The position numbers were made by a program, and so were the translations under genes. The notes under the pieces were generated by a model that was not told the origin of the DNA, did no database searches, and saw only the letters and a program-made list of their open reading frames with translations. This document shows positions 8,855 through 18,698 of a stretch of DNA of 21,385 bases, one piece after another. Every line of letters starts with the position of its first letter. The first letter of the stretch is position 1. This DNA is from a virus, in the IMG/VR virus record IMGVR_UViG_3300025132_000370, positions 1 to 21,385 of that record. One strand, given 5' to 3'.

Positions 8855-11800
8855 ATGCCAGAGTTGAAGAAAATGTTCTCAGCCGCTAGAATGAACAAGG
8901 ATCTCGATGAGAGACTTGTTCCCCAAGGCGAGTATAGAGACGCGACTAATATAGAAATATCTACTTCAGAAGGTTCTAATAGCGGGGTAGTTCAGACATT
9001 AAAAGGTAATGTTAGAAAAGCATCGATGGCTAACTTTCCAGGTGCAGATACTGGTGTTTATGATTTAGGCGTAAATTACCAAGGTACATGTGTGGGTTCT
9101 ATAGCCGCTCATGAAAAAGATAAAATATACTACTTTGTTCATAGTTCCTTAAATACTGTTACCGAGGCTGAGTTAACTCATGGTAAAGATTATATCTTAG
9201 AATTTGACACTATTACTGAAACTAATAAGTACGTTTTTGTAGATATATTTAGAGTAAATACGACTACTACTAGCACAGCAGTAACGGATAGCACTACGTT
9301 TCATATAGAACTTGGTAGTGGTACTAGCACAAATCAAACAGGTATACGAATTGGTATGAATTTAATCTACGGCTCTACGTATGATTTAACAAATACCATC
9401 GTTGAAGTTACGGATATATCTTATGATACGACTGTAAATAAGTGGAAAATAACAGTGGACACGGCTGTAACCATACCTGCTTCTACTAGCATACGCTTTA
9501 CAGCAGATAAAGTTTTAGAGTTTAATAGAAATAATTTAATAACCGCTATAAATATACTCGAAGATTTTATCTTCTGGACTGATAATATTAACGAACCCAA
9601 AAAGATACATATCAAACGATCTATGTTTGGCACTGGTGGTTCAGAGGCTTTGGGTGATATTTTTAATGGAAACAACGCTTATTTCCACACTCGCCTTGTT
9701 ATAGATAATACTGGAGTAGGTGATAACTACCATGTAGTTACTAACGCCGCGGGAACACAACCTGTTTTCACAGATATACATAACGTAACAGTTATTAAGA
9801 AAGCTCCGGTCACTCAACTAGAGCTAGATATGTATAGGACCTCTTCTAGTAGGGTAAATACGATAACAGGTATTGAGAACCCCGTATCAGCTTTAGCGAC
9901 AACATATGTTGAGGGTGAAACATGGAATAGCGCGTTACATGTTGCGGGTAATCCAGTTGAAGTAGGAACAGAGGTGGATGTAGATTTTCTTGAACCTGTA
10001 GATTTTAGATTAGGTGATGTCTTAATATTTGCTCTTGAAAGTAGTTTTTTAGATGAAGATAATTTCGAGGAATCAGTACAAGATGTTAGAGCTGTAGTTA
10101 CAGACGTGCCGGGTGATAATGACAATCCTAACATATTGTATCAAAGTGGTTTTAAAGTCGAAGTTTTATCTATACAAGAAGACGTTGCTAATGACTGGGG
10201 CGTAGAAGGTAATCCATGGAAAGTTAGACTTGAAGATAAAGATCCTTTATTTAACTTTAAGTTTCCAAGATTTTCTTATAGATATAAATATATAGATGGC
10301 GAATACTCTACATTTGCACCATGGTCTGAAATAGCTTTTTTACCAGGAAATTTTGATTATCAACCTAAAAGAGGTCACAACCTGGGTATGAAAAATCAAA
10401 TGAGGGGATTGAAGATTAAAAATTATCATCCATCAGAAAATACTTTTCCTCAAGATGTTGTAGAAATAGATATACTATATAAAGAAACAAACAACACCCG
10501 TGTTTACACTGTAAAAACTTTCAAAAAGTCTGATGGTTATCCTTTGTGGCCAGATACAAATAACTATCCTGATTCACGAGGAGAGTTTGATTTAACCACG
10601 GATATGATTCACGCCGTAGTTCCATCTAATCAATTGTTAAGGCCTTGGGATAATGTTCCAAGAAAAGCACTTTGCCAAGAGATTACCGCTAACAGATTAG
10701 TATACGCTAATTACTTACAGGGATATGATATAGCTAAAGAACCAATTATAAATACTAGCTTCATTCATGAGGATATAAATGACGATGGTAATACATACCC
10801 TTTGCCTTCTGTTAAAACCATGCGTGATTATCAGATAGGGGTTGTTTTTAGTGATAGGTTTGGGCGAGAAACACCTGTGCTAACAAACAAAGACTCATCT
10901 ATAAGATTAGATAAAAAGCATTCTAAGCATAGAAATAGAATAAAAGTAAGCTTAGATTCTAGTTCAGAAATACCTAGCTGGGCTGAATATTACTCTTTCT
11001 ATATAAAAGAAACTTCTGTAGAGTACTACACGTTATCTATGGATAGATGGTATAATGCATCTGACGGAAATATATGGTTGTCATTTCCCTCTTCAGAAAG
11101 AAATAAAATGAAGGAAGAGGATTTTTTAATCCTCAAGAAAGCTCATGGATCTGATCAGATTGTTAGTGAAAAAGCAAAGTATAAAATACTATCTATATCA
11201 AACGAGGCGCCAGACTTCATTAAAACAAGGAAGTTAACCCTAAGTAAAGTTACTAGCCAAGATGACATTGGAACTAGCGGAACTGGATTTCCTTTAGTAG
11301 GATTTAAATCAGTTAATATTAAGTCAAGTACTTTTACAGAAGAATTCGGAGACTCATTCGTGTCTGATCGTGATTATGAAAAACTATTTATAAGAGTTTG
11401 GGCTGGCAATGAGGCTTCGCTGCCGTATGAAATAACTAATATTGCTGATGCTGGCGACTTCTATACGTTGAATTTACTACATTCATTTGGTGAAGACGTA
11501 AGCATTACGTCCACTGATAACACTTATGAATCTAGAGTTGACGATATAGCTATAGAACTTTTAGATTATAAAGTACAAAACTTACCTGAATTTGATGGTA
11601 GATTTTTTGTTAAGATATACAAAGACGACGTACTAGAAAATTATGTTGCTAACGATCAAAGTACTGATTGGTATATAAAACAATCTTGGCAACTAGGTTA
11701 TATAAATAACAACGGTTACGTCAACGCTGGTACAAGGACGGGTGATACTAATTACGCTGGCGGTTTTGGAGGAGCTGTACCTGTGTATCCAGTATATCCA

Positions 11801-14800
11801 TACAATAAAGCTGAGTTAGATTGGAATTCAGTAAATAGTGAAAACGAAGGAAATCCCAACGAGTGGTTTAAACACTATTCTTCTTGGAACTACACCTACG
11901 GAAGATTTCACCCTACAGAGCATAATTGGTATGAGTTGTCGCAAGACGCTAATGAAGCTTTTACTGGAGCTACGTCACAAGAGTCTACGTATAGTAATGG
12001 CGGGCGTTATAAGTTCTTAACTGGTGTAAATAACAATACTTTAGGTGCCGTAAAAGAGAACATGGAGACATGCACGGTAAGAGCTATCAATGGTTGGGGA
12101 AAGTGGGATAATGGCCCCGACTTTATGAAGGCTAAGCATTTTTGGTGGTCTATACGTAGAAATAAGGTTTTTTGGATCGACGCTTGCACCGCTGCTGTTT
12201 ATGGCGGTAGGGGTAATGCTGGTAATAACTTTAGACCAGGTACTAAATACACGGCTTATAAATACTTAAATGGAGATCCAAGCGACACAGAGCATAATTA
12301 CCTTGGTATCACTGAAGCGGATGCTGATGGATTCCAACACTTAGGAACCTATGGACAAAATTTCTGGTTTAACAAAGATGAACTTGGCGCAACCCCATAT
12401 CTAGCTGGCGGTCAGTCGACTTTTCACCATTATGGTGTCACTGAGACTGCTGGATCTAGTGTGTCAGGAGGGTGGCATTGGACTAACGTTCTATTCCACG
12501 ACTATACTATAGACGAAGACGGTGTATTACAATCTGGTGAATACCACCATGGAGGTAACTCGGCGCCAAGTAGAGGAATATGGACAGACGGTACCAACTG
12601 TTTTATGGATATCTCATGGTCAAGCTTTAACAATCGCTCCAACGAATGGCACGTAGATTCCGATCAAAAAGGAATAGCATCCAATGTTCACGACGACGCG
12701 TTCGATCAGTGCCCACAAGGTAATCAAAACGTGAACTGTTCCCATGATATGCCAGCGTGGGAGGCTTGGGAATTTATAAAAGAGTTTGTCACACCTGGAA
12801 CTAAGTTTAGATTTAGGCGCTGTCCTGATCAACAAGTATACACAGTTAAAGATTTTGGCAGTGGTAGTAGCAACGTACCGCATGTTGGGAAATATAGCAC
12901 GTGGAGTTTCCATGGCTCAATTGACGATCTATTAGAAAAAGCCCAATACGGTGTATATGGTATAAGAAATGTTATTTCAGGAGGAAATATCATGGATAGC
13001 CAGGGGAAAATGAGTCGTCAGTACTTTACAAATTGGAATAATAGACAAAGATGGACGGTGAGAGTAGAGCCGTTTATAGGTGGCCCAGAAACAGAAAGTG
13101 GGTATAATCCAATACACGGTACTGATCCCAACTTAGTAACAGACTTTGATGACCCTAGATTTAGAAGAGCTCTACAGCACGATGGTTTTGATAACAAATC
13201 TGGTTATGACGCTATAGAGATATTAACACCGTTTAACACGGGTGAATCATCATACTCTGATAATCCTGCTATATGGGAGACAGAACCTAGAGAAGCCGCT
13301 GAAGTAGATATATACTATCAAGCTTCACATTTAATACCTATTAATATAAACTCTAAAAATATTGAAGAGTTTATACCTATAGGATCTAAGTTTAAGATTA
13401 GTGGTTATCTTCCTTTGCAACAAGGTGGCGCTACACCAGCAACGACTACTCACACGGTAACTGGTTTAGATGGTAATGTAGTCACGTTTACACCTGGCAT
13501 AAGTACATACGGCGCAGTCTCAGTTGATGGTGAAGTAAGTGTACCTGGTTTAGGAATTAATTCTTCTGTTGAATTTGAAACTCACGGAAATACTACTTCA
13601 ATACAAACCGCGACTAGCGCCTCTGGAATAGGTACTACTAGCATGACTATTAACACGGATTCGTGGAGAGCAAGGCATAAACTTGGATGGAGTAATTGCT
13701 GGAGTTTTGGTAACGGAGTTGAATCTGATAGAATTAGAGATGATTTCAACGCACCGCAATTAGATAACGGTGTAAAAGCATCTGCTACGCTAGCTAATAA
13801 GAGTATAAGAGAGGAGCATAGGAAGTACGGTTTGATATGGTCAGGCTTATATAATTCTAACTCTGGTATTAACGATACTAATCAGTTTATAATGGCTGAG
13901 AAGATAACTAAAGAAGTTAATCCATCTCACGGTAGTATACAGGCTATAAAAGCTAGAGATACTCAAATACACTTGTTCTGTGAAGATAAAGTTCTTAGGG
14001 CTGTAACTAATAAAGACGCGTTATATAATGCCGACGGTAAGCCTCAGTTAATATCTAGTAACGCTGTTATTGGAGATGTTCGAGGTTATCAAGGTGATTT
14101 TGGCATATCTAAAAATCCAGAATCTTTAGCGGTTACGCCTTATAACATGTATTTTACAGACGTAATGAGAGGTAAGGTGTTAGCGTTATCTACAGAGGGT
14201 GTTAGACCTATATCTGACAACGGTATGAAAGACTACTTTGCTGATACAATGAACTCGTACATTGATCAAGCTATAGGTACGTATGACGAAAGGAAAAATG
14301 AATATAATATTTCTCTAAACAAGAAATATAGTCATGATCAAAAACTACCTACGGAACAGATCACTGTTTCATATAGTGAAAAATCTAAGGGATGGACTAG
14401 TTTTAAAACATTCTATAAGACATACGACACGTCGCCCGCTGAAGTCCAAGGTTTAGAAAATGGCGTTAGTTTAAACAACAATTACTACACGTTCTTTGAC
14501 GGTCACATATGGAGGCATCACGACAACGAAACTAGGAACAACTTTTATAACACGCAGTTTACGTCTGATGTAACGGTTTTATTTAACGATCAACCAGAAG
14601 CTGTTAAGAGTTTTAATACAATAAACTACGAAGGATCTCAAGCTAAAATAACTAACTGGGATGATGCTGGTTTTGGTAGTTCATCTGGCGCTACTGATGG
14701 AATAGGTTTTTACAATAACGATTTGGCTACTGGTAGCGGAGCTACCGTAGGCACTACAATTGTTAATAACGTTAGCGATAGAGAATATTATAATATACCT

Positions 14801-15067: not shown

Positions 15068-17749
15068 ATGGCAGTATATTACACAATAGCAGGCACAAAA
15101 ACTATTCAGGTTGGAGACAACTTAACTGGTACGCATACAAATATAACTATTACACCTATAGATCCTGACACTGACGTACATAGCGGATATTATCTACAGG
15201 CTAGTAATTTTAAAGTCGGCGGTGGTACAGAAACAAATGGAAGTGGAGTAGCTACTTCGGGCACCAACATATATGAACCTACAGATGGGTCTTGGAATGC
15301 TGACACTGGTGTATCTAAAGTTACATTTACAAATAATAGTAACACGCCTGGAGATATAAACAATACAGTTAACGTAAAGGTTGATTTTGGATCAGTAACC
15401 CCAAGCGCAACAGGTAGTATAAATATAGACATTGACGAAAAAACAGATAACCCTATTGAATTAGCGCCTAGCAGAAAAGTTTGTTTTCAAGTTTGGTTAC
15501 CATATGATGCTAACGTAACATACGAGTTTTATCAACCATCTATTAATACACATGATTGGACAGTAGCGGCTAATCCTTACTTAGGCGTAACTAGAACACA
15601 AACTGATGATGGTACTACCGACGGTTGGATAAAATATAAGTTTGAAGGAACTATAAATAGTTATGTTGAAAGTCAAGTATATAAATTGATCAGAGTTGGT
15701 GTATTAAGAGCTAACTTAGGTTTAGCTATAGATACCCTGCCAACTGTTTCAGACGGTGTTACAGAGCCTGATTTTAGCACTCATGATTTTTATATTACCA
15801 ACGATAACGTGTCTTGGGCGGGTACGCCTCCTCAATATGTAAGCGCATATAATCACGAATTATTTCAAATTACTAACGCAAATAATCAAGCGTATATAGT
15901 AGGTGCAACACTATCGTATAATCCTTTAGACATAGATGGATTTTCAGAATTAGAAGATGGAGATTTTTGTGGATTAGGCCATACCTTTAAACTATCACAT
16001 AGAGTTTTTCAACCAGTTGATCCAGTTGACGCAGGTGATGAAATAACTAACGTAACCTTTCCGCCTACATTACCAAACACATCTAGCCACGAGACTATAA
16101 TAGTAAAAGGTACTGCTGGTGCTAAGTACTCATTAAATCTTCAGAAAATGGAAAGTACAACTAGTACAAAAGTTACCAATACAAGCGGTTATTATAGTTT
16201 TTCTGGAGGATTACGAGGATTTAAAGACGTGATATCTCGCGCTAAAAGCAATGAGTTTACTATAGATAGTTCTGGTAGAAAACATCATAATTTTATTTTA
16301 CCTAAAGCTACTAGCGATGAAAGGTATGAAGTGTTTGTAACTCCAATGGGAACGACAACAGCTAGAAGTGGCGTACCTACAAAAGCCGGAGAAGGTACTA
16401 TTTTAAGGGACGGTATAACAACTATTACTATTCAAGCTGAAGCAGACACTGAAGCAAACTGGCAATTTTCTACTACGGCCGCTAATGAATCTGGCGTTAC
16501 ACCGGTTAGAACAACGTCTTTTTCTCGTAGGAAAACTGCAAAATCCCATAGCAATCACTTCAGTGTATCTGCTAGAGCAGCGTCAGCCGTATCATCTTCA
16601 ACTAAACTAGTATTAGATAGAGAATACAGTAACATACGGCCTGGCATGTATGTTATAATACCTATGGCTGGCGATGGTGTGCCGTATAATACTAAAGTAA
16701 GTGCTGTAAGAAATAGAACCGTAATACTTAATGCTAATTGTACTATAGCTCAAAACGCTGATGTTTTATTCGAAAGTAACACTAGCGCAATATTTCCTTT
16801 TAATCTAACTATACCAGCTGGTTATACTTACGGCGCAGAACTTATAGCTTCTGACGCAACTAATAATAGAACGTTTGACGCGGGTGTTGGTAGCTGGGAT
16901 GAACTTGATGACACTGGTAGTGATGTTGCTGTTGCTAGATCTAGTGGGTCAAAATTGCAGGTAACCACTACAACTGATAGTGAAATAGAAGGAGCTCAAC
17001 TACCAATCATTCACGTTGGAGACGGTAGCACAACGTCTATCGTTGTTGGTAAAGCATATCGAGTTGCTATGAAATTAGCTTTAACTAGTGGGGCAACAAC
17101 TATGGCCACGAGATTCGCTATAGGCGGAACTGCTAGTGACGCGTTTACTATCACGACTTCAGAAACAACTGTTGAACAAATTATAGTTGCAGCTAATAAT
17201 ACTGATGCTTTAAAAGTATATAATACTTCTTCTACAAACTGTGTGTTCACGGTAGATGATGTCACGGTAACAGAAGTGACTTATAAAAACTTGACAGCCA
17301 CGAATACAGATCCATCTACTTCTTTAGGTGGTACTTCTCAAGGTTTAACAGCTGTAGTTGATGGAGATACTACTAATAGTGCCAATGTCACGGTTGTTTC
17401 ACCTGGTCAACGAAAAGTTCAAGTAGGTATGATAGTTAGAAGTAAAGAAATTGCTGAGCATACAGGCGTAAAGGGTGTTAATACTTCTACTAGAGTAATA
17501 ACTATGAATGATCCGCAGTCTCTAACTAGCGGTACTACCTTAACGTTTAATACTGATCCAGATTCAACTACGCCTATTACAACTGATGGTGTTACTTTAA
17601 TACATGCTCACGCGGCGATATCAGAAACTGGTAGCGTATCGAATCAAGAGGTTGCACAAGTATACGGATATCTCAGAGTAAATCGACCAACTAACACAGT
17701 TACACTACCTTTCTATCTAGACAGCATATTGACATCTGCTTCATTCTAA
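15068..17749 (+). CDS. Beta-rich tail fibre/spike-like protein with CBM-like module
   Basis: The protein has 893 residues, is rich in Thr, Ser, Val and Asn, and has almost no long helix, as in fibres, spikes or capsid decorations built from beta domains. Residues about 599-737 look like a jelly-roll carbohydrate-binding module of the CBM4/9 kind: an opening FDAGVGSWDE, a central GKAYRVAMKL strand pair, and the closing FTVDDVTVTEV. It is flanked by two related beta modules with the pattern GMxV followed by a Thr-Val turn and VI(L/T): one at about residues 515-560 (NIRPGMYVIIP), one at about 780-830 (VQVGMIVRSKE). The N-terminal 130 residues may be another Ig-like unit. The gene starts three bases after the muzzle stop, in the same frame. 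Surface binding of host glycans is inferred. A head fibre is an alternative. Confidence 0.6.
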   Translation: MAVYYTIAGTKTIQVGDNLTGTHTNITITPIDPDTDVHSGYYLQASNFKVGGGTETNGSGVATSGTNIYEPTDGSWNADTGVSKVTFTNNSNTPGDINNTVNVKVDFGSVTPSATGSINIDIDEKTDNPIELAPSRKVCFQVWLPYDANVTYEFYQPSINTHDWTVAANPYLGVTRTQTDDGTTDGWIKYKFEGTINSYVESQVYKLIRVGVLRANLGLAIDTLPTVSDGVTEPDFSTHDFYITNDNVSWAGTPPQYVSAYNHELFQITNANNQAYIVGATLSYNPLDIDGFSELEDGDFCGLGHTFKLSHRVFQPVDPVDAGDEITNVTFPPTLPNTSSHETIIVKGTAGAKYSLNLQKMESTTSTKVTNTSGYYSFSGGLRGFKDVISRAKSNEFTIDSSGRKHHNFILPKATSDERYEVFVTPMGTTTARSGVPTKAGEGTILRDGITTITIQAEADTEANWQFSTTAANESGVTPVRTTSFSRRKTAKSHSNHFSVSARAASAVSSSTKLVLDREYSNIRPGMYVIIPMAGDGVPYNTKVSAVRNRTVILNANCTIAQNADVLFESNTSAIFPFNLTIPAGYTYGAELIASDATNNRTFDAGVGSWDELDDTGSDVAVARSSGSKLQVTTTTDSEIEGAQLPIIHVGDGSTTSIVVGKAYRVAMKLALTSGATTMATRFAIGGTASDAFTITTSETTVEQIIVAANNTDALKVYNTSSTNCVFTVDDVTVTEVTYKNLTATNTDPSTSLGGTSQGLTAVVDGDTTNSANVTVVSPGQRKVQVGMIVRSKEIAEHTGVKGVNTSTRVITMNDPQSLTSGTTLTFNTDPDSTTPITTDGVTLIHAHAAISETGSVSNQEVAQVYGYLRVNRPTNTVTLPFYLDSILTSASF

Positions 17750-18200: not shown

Positions 18201-18698
18201 ATGACTGATAACAAGTTACAAAAAAAACCTAAGTCTGAATTATCTAAAGACTTTAGAACTGCTGTAGTTTCTTTAGAAAATAATCTAAAAGAGCTAGCAG
18301 ATGGTGTTAATATTGTAGCTGGTACCAAAGAAAAGCCAATAGTAAACAATAGTAAATTAGTGCCTATCAGACATTTTTTTATGGATGGGGTTTACGTAAG
18401 GGAGATGACAATGTTTAAAGATACTATAGTTATTGGTGCTATACACAAACACTTGCACATGTGCTTTTTACTTAAAGGTAAAATCACTGTTAGTAATGAA
18501 GAAGAGACGGTAGATCATATAGCGCCATGTTTTATTGTGTCTACACCAGGTATTAAACGAGTATTGTATGCTCATGAAGATTCTGTGTGGTACAATACAC
18601 ACAAAAACCCAAGTAACACTGAAGACGTAGATCAATTAGAAAAGGATATTGTTGCTTTAACGTATGAAGAATATGAAGAATATATTAAAAATAAATAA
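18201..18698 (+). CDS. Cupin-fold protein inside the virion gene block
   Basis: The protein has 165 residues: an N-terminal helical arm (1-45), a cupin barrel (about 55-137) and an acidic C-terminal helix. Cupin motif 1 is seen as GAIHKHLHMCFLLKG with His82, His84 and His86; the usual Glu of that motif is missing. Motif 2 is represented by APCFIVSTPGIKRVLYAHED with His125, and His134 follows. The sequence pattern (FLLKG, STPG, KRV, Ala-x-Glu-Asp, Trp, His) recurs, from memory, in small phage cupins of unknown function. The His cluster could bind a metal, but without the Glu an enzymatic oxygenase-type role is uncertain. It lies between structural genes with no metabolic neighbours, so a virion or assembly role, or binding of a sugar or small ligand, is possible. 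The fold call is good; the function is unknown. Confidence 0.72.
   Translation: MTDNKLQKKPKSELSKDFRTAVVSLENNLKELADGVNIVAGTKEKPIVNNSKLVPIRHFFMDGVYVREMTMFKDTIVIGAIHKHLHMCFLLKGKITVSNEEETVDHIAPCFIVSTPGIKRVLYAHEDSVWYNTHKNPSNTEDVDQLEKDIVALTYEEYEEYIKNK

Follow-up and report, generated by a model that had tools for sequence, protein, structure and literature searches.

The muzzle protein of the crAss-like phage analyzed here contains, between two conserved anchors, a segment of 345 residues whose richness in Trp and His recurs in many relatives and which probably acts as a variable host-contact surface at the tail tip. The window, that is, the whole stretch of DNA analyzed, is the 21,385-base virus record IMGVR_UViG_3300025132_000370, and the features of its muzzle gene are collected in Table 1.

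Identity of the muzzle protein and delimitation of its variable segment

The encoded protein matches PHROG 14478 (E 1e-120), the Pfam family crAss_MUZ_C over residues 1893-2015 (28.0 bits, just above the cut-off of 27; E 3e-6) and, over residues 1685-1925, positions 1055-1277 of gp44 from phage PhicrAss001 (profile match, probability 95.8%), the other profile stretches shared with gp44 being three colinear ones with probabilities of 0.4-8.8% and two non-colinear ones with 0.1-0.3%. Located 5' of the muzzle gene are a terminase, a portal and three genes of 'virion structural protein' PHROGs, presumably encoding the capsid and ring proteins, and the order terminase, portal, structural genes and muzzle matches that of Cellulophaga phage phi38:1. 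The muzzle of the window phage probably forms the tail tip. Of the 87 phage records matched by tblastn, 68 carry the name of Flavobacterium, 15 of Cellulophaga, two of Tenacibaculum and one of Maribacter, with one Caudoviricetes record besides, and this suggests a flavobacterial host. Directly 3' of the muzzle, an 893-aa gene (15068-17749) found no counterpart among the phage records or in the Pfam and PHROG collections, and an 892-aa frame, alike in position and size, stands at the equivalent place in the nearest of the relatives listed (L001, IMGVR_UViG_3300009605_000082). Neither a tRNA nor an Rfam family at gathering score was found in the window.

Relatives were the 80 top-ranked loci out of at least 532, plus 77 drawn from the top 80 out of at least 281; both sets are biased towards the query, since they were drawn from best-ranked loci. 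The anchor search was entered by 73 muzzles (the window and 72 others, near copies such as L011 included) and yielded both anchors in 68, the right one being missing in five (L064, L046, L079, L003 and L004). For composition and adjusted G+C, L011, L012 and L081 were also removed as near copies, leaving 65 homologues, while a larger set comprised 110 muzzles once copies and those with incomplete cores had been removed. The interval equivalent to window residues 958-1302 spans 65-363 aa in the 68 muzzles and up to 430 aa among the 110.

Table 1. Position of the muzzle gene and its features in the window, with residue numbers of the muzzle protein.
Feature	Residues	Positions	Strand	Remarks
Muzzle protein gene	2069 aa	8855..15064	+	crAss_MUZ_C, PHROG 14478 and gp44 profile match
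Modelled region, matching IG2 and crass domain	590-1640	10622..13774	+	AF2; best VIA-align row 7qol_P
Left anchor	880-957	11492..11725	+	contains NLPEFDGRFFVKI; in 71/73 muzzles; G915 and F917 in 68/68 aligned rows
Variable segment	958-1302 (345 aa)	11726..12760	+	between conserved anchors
HPTE island	1019-1022	11909..11920	+	H1019 in 45/47
FW....FFIDxxTA island	1096-1118	12140..12208	+	holds W1097 (47/47) and C1111 (26/47)
Most variable loops	1119-1234	12209..12556	+	mostly pLDDT <50; low conservation
PSRGIW....MDISW island	1238-1256	12566..12622	+	W1243 in 45/47, W1255 in 43/47
Right anchor	1303-1340	12761..12874	+	contains TPGTKFRF..xPD; anchor search; P1324 in 65/68
Conserved block 3' of crass-domain region	1614-1759	13694..14131	+	core2 anchor in 73/73 muzzles

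Unusual muzzles were also observed among the relatives. Nine giant ones (L045, L053, L067, L069, L070, L059, L084, L072 and L048) reach 2847-3368 aa and contain 40-87 Cys, which for the most part lie in an extended C-terminus; that of L053 includes a GCTDPSAVNYCPTCTIDDGSCVY stretch, which we take to be a motif of secreted proteins in marine Bacteroidetes. The muzzle is interrupted in L031 (13961 onward) and L086 (14327 onward): near window residues ~1826-1836 it breaks into two frames, the second of which carries the C-terminal part.

Sequence searches with the segment or its parent protein were negative within the following scopes: (i) the 50,697 phage records, searched by tblastn with residues ~962-1448 at an E limit of 1; (ii) the whole muzzle against plasmids; (iii) the segment against genome contigs, with 23 candidate stretches, none confirmed; (iv) the PDB, both by a profile built from four whole-muzzle sequences (no chain at E<=0.1) and by sequence with just the last 456 aa (none at E 1); (v) Pfam on the segments of the window, L001 and L007 (none at E up to 10, where HMMER filters drop most matches above 0.1); and (vi) the PHROGs, with 47 segments as queries (none at 0.01). 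A match to iota-carbonic anhydrase was rejected because its total E of 1.6e-8 is the inflated sum of three near-identical repeats, each with an i-E of 0.08-0.9, so that no single domain was significant. The flavoprotein match 4ici was dropped as weak (E 0.28), and the repeats of the muzzle gene (16 direct families and 8 inverted pairs), being short and imperfect, were read as chance.

Composition, G+C and cysteines

The original prediction had singled out residues 989-1369 (11819-12961) as a Trp/His/Cys-rich center, and its counts proved exact, with 18 of the 45 Trp, 17 of the 48 His and 6 of the 11 Cys of the protein. When the muzzle residues were permuted 20,000 times and any 381-aa window reaching the observed count was scored, the 41 Trp, His and Cys taken together were reached in 0 permutations, the 35 Trp and His in 9, the 18 Trp in 402, the 17 His in 2,081 and the 6 Cys in 2,926. 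The joint cluster is real, while that of Cys by itself lies within chance. Content of these three residues is also higher in the segment than in the rest of the protein in 66/68 muzzles (window included), with enrichments across the 65 homologues of 2.75-fold for Trp, 2.42-fold for His, 1.69-fold for Gly and 1.29-fold for Cys, whereas Val, Ile and Leu drop to ~0.6-fold and Lys is also depleted. Similarly, segment G+C is above that of the rest in 67/68 muzzles, and G+C3 in 61/68. The Trp/His/G+C signature is not private to the window phage and is found in many relatives.

Regarding the window muzzle, G+C over 12421-12780 was measured at 45.3%, as anticipated (~45%), while the 22-32% ascribed to other parts of the gene was too low, the remainder of the gene having 36.2%. 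The expectation that amino-acid composition explains part of the rise also stood: using the amino-acid make-up of residues 989-1369 with the codon use of the remaining gene, 40.2% G+C is expected (simulated s.d. 0.7%) versus 43.0% observed, so that composition accounts for slightly over half of the rise, and the remaining part is synonymous. This synonymous share is greater in the window muzzle than family-wide. Across the 65 homologues the amino-acid-adjusted G+C3 difference shrinks to only 0.009, being positive in 39/65 (Wilcoxon p 0.04), which indicates a rise due mostly to composition with a small synonymous part; the Trp/Gly/His-rich make-up thus appears as its main source in the family.

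The original prediction also considered metal or disulfide stabilization of this region, which found no support and to which we assign hardly any probability. The nearest relative lacks two of the six window Cys and retains C1073, C1111, C1249 and C1323, and both C1111 and H1019 recur in the aligned sequences (26/47 and 45/47, window included). These two are, however, the only widely shared Cys or His apart from which most positions are unconserved, C1323 corresponds to Asp in 65/68 aligned rows, and Cys enrichment remains within chance both in the window muzzle and family-wide, the median percentile of segment Cys among same-length windows being 0.42 in the 65 homologues. Co-occurrence of Cys column groups was not convincing for any of the 36 pairs (smallest p 0.027). 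Since most window Cys are unconserved, a module held by metal or disulfides is not supported. As a separate observation, L026, L143, L134 and L161 have short segments with 6-11 Cys each, unlike most of the 110 muzzles, and may represent a Cys-rich variant.

Conserved islands, changing loops and origin of the segment

Alignment of 47 sequences (window included) showed four near-fixed positions within the segment, H1019, W1097, W1243 and W1255. Trp accounts for 11.4% of the residues where columns are conserved but for 1.6% where they are variable, while the corresponding values for His are 2.1% and 3.3%. In both alignments, Trp is in the majority at W1097, W1171, W1243 and W1255; at W1265 it reaches 25/39 in one and 16% in the other, and it is in the minority at the other Trp positions of the window. 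Loops 1119-1234 contain W1171, W1207, W1209, H1147, H1162, H1191, H1192, H1208, H1215, H1231 and H1232, of which W1171 is Trp in 33/38, the remaining ones being mostly unshared. Judging from these alignments, the conserved islands form a Trp/Gly scaffold, whereas the intervening loops change fast and gain or lose pieces. A clean case is provided by L024 and its near twin L033, a 37-residue stretch being present in the former and absent in the latter, the segments being otherwise 97% identical.

Comparison with the nearest relative points in the same direction. Its full-length muzzle is 80% identical to that of the window, but its segment, of 340 aa, is only 63% identical (0.634 versus 0.77-0.89 elsewhere), with a value of 0.49 at residues 1174-1242. 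In 21 pairs hand-picked from the closest of the 110 set, amino-acid identity of the segment is below that of both flanks in 17, with means of 0.711 versus 0.857 and 0.841. Of the outcomes that the original prediction had named as refuting it, the presence of the segment in homologues was observed, but with lowered and not with normal conservation. In 12 of the 21 pairs, hand-picked from the less diverged ones plus window/L001, segment dN/dS stays under 1 in 12/12 and is above the flanks only in 8/12 (median ratio 1.37), so that the segment as a whole shows no signature of positive selection. As a check for a diversity-generating retroelement, RVT_1 was found in 0/3 of the relatives' records G001-G003 (completeness not given), and no reverse transcriptase was among the PHROG matches of 13 window proteins.

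A recombinational origin of the segment had been suggested too, and several synonymous features are compatible with its gain from a source of higher G+C: the segment of the window muzzle exceeds all same-length stretches compared in amino-acid-adjusted use of G/C-ending codons (odds ratio 1.48 for residues 958-1302), 4-fold G+C family-wide is slightly greater in the segment (0.151 versus 0.134; greater in 38/65, p 0.012), and NG86 dS of the segment is above the flanks in 9/12 pairs (median ratio 1.56). The latter makes exchange of the segment among close relatives possible, and the sequences may point to it. Nonetheless, the adjusted G+C3 difference of the family is minute, the scaffold is common to the aligned relatives, and L001 carries the segment with a 4-fold-site difference to the window of 0.45, versus 0.32-0.42 outside it. 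NG86 dS for this pair is likewise higher in the segment (1.39 versus 1.04), both values being close to saturation, and mean 4-fold differences in the 21 pairs are 0.345 versus 0.310 and 0.317 in the flanks. Gain of the segment from a higher-G+C source is accordingly unsupported for the window and seems to us improbable, an old segment, not newly gained, being the best reading.

Position in the muzzle, probable host contact and relation to known muzzles

The AF2 model of residues 590-1640, built with 60 sequences, reached a mean pLDDT of 73.7 and a pTM of 0.54, with block means of 75-92 for the FW....FFIDxxTA island and low confidence for the loops. Its best VIA-align row was 7qol_P 317-1011, with 248 aligned residues, none of the 49 further rows listed exceeding 130, and a Z of 7.6, values below 8 being ones that may reflect a common arrangement. 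This range is near residues 318-1021 of gp44, described by Bayfield et al. (2023, PMC10172136) as an IG2 domain with an inserted crass domain. The segment would therefore lie in a part of the muzzle that moderately resembles the IG2-crass domain of gp44. Foldseek of the same model against the PDB gave 0 matches at E<=0.001, 7qol being absent from the 50 rows listed; against a viral library it gave seven at E<=0.001, two of them named stabilization protein, and the best, named for the muzzle C-terminal domain, covered 1030 columns at E 1e-32 with a TM of only 0.34. The model of the segment alone was too poor (mean pLDDT 53.7), and a second look with VIA across 12 chains found none with Z >=2.

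According to the same source, muzzles differ in length because of insertions in their IG2 and crass domains, and the crass domain has been proposed to probably contact the cell surface (Bayfield et al. 2023, PMC10172136). The crass-domain position of the segment, its fast change, and the gain and loss of loops make a tail-tip contact domain the best supported reading. The contact domain of the original prediction is retained in this sense; we consider it rather probable that the segment is a variable host-contact surface. Direct results are its location, scaffold, variability and residue composition and the absence of conserved Cys sites, whereas surface exposure, host contact and a role as trigger are what we infer. 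A small scaffold of conserved Trp, Gly and Phe would bear long His/Gly/Asn-rich loops, and six muzzle subunits, as deduced from PhicrAss001 gp44, would present them at the distal end of the tail, where a crass-like muzzle is expected to be a hexamer with a gated seven-bladed propeller. For this reason the loops most likely touch the host surface, either an outer-membrane protein or a glycan, and contribute to triggering the opening of the muzzle gate. The loops themselves change via substitution plus gain or loss of whole pieces.

A loosely constrained surface, with loops that bind nothing and perhaps act as a spacer or shield between muzzle subunits, might also show a dN/dS below 1 yet modestly raised in the segment, a 37-aa loop cleanly lost or gained, and low pLDDT in the loops. 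On the contrary, joint Trp/His/Cys enrichment is retained throughout nearly all of the 68 muzzles, and W1097 and W1243 are nearly invariant, beyond the needs of a spacer, although these Trp may be needed only for folding; such a surface is thus the less likely of the two, and we regard it as rather unlikely.

Against a host-contact role of the segment stand, besides the dN/dS values, the moderate structural match and the low-confidence loops, other proteins put forward as receptor binders. A tail spike has been proposed for this function in such phages (PMC10569736). In the window, the product of a 165-aa adhesin-like gene (18201-18698) is related through PHROG 12032 (E 6e-33) to families of tail fibre adhesins and short tail fibres and is another candidate host-contact protein. 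That the muzzle itself, in addition to the fibres, is a main host-range determinant, its six subunits surrounding the tail exit with Trp/Gly scaffolds that each display up to ~430 aa of variable loops rich in His, Gly and Asn, is a tentative and somewhat doubtful proposal. To our knowledge, host recognition by crass-like phages is poorly known. If the loops bind the host, one delimited gene stretch could serve both to read and to test the host range of a large group of uncultivated phages.

Among known systems, gp97 of phi38:1 (Pervagoviridae; 1324 aa) and its homologue in Flavobacterium phage elemoF_6-3D (1493 aa) occupy the same gene position as the window muzzle and share 31-33% identity with it across 38-42% of the chain, whereas the segment anchors were not found in either by the anchor search. 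The muzzle gp44 of Bacteroides phage PhicrAss001 (PDB 7QOL) is shorter, with 1371 aa versus 2069 aa, and the variable segment has no sequence match to it among those listed; the two proteins are alike in their C-terminal profile match and in the structural match across the IG2-crass range. Trp/His-rich variable loops in such muzzles were the subject of no paper found in searches of an open-access library, which is weak evidence of absence. In general, the segment, which no phage record matched, is a large and well-delimited case of the crass/IG2 insertions already described, to which the present analysis adds a family-wide signature of a Trp/Gly scaffold with His/Asn/Gly loops.
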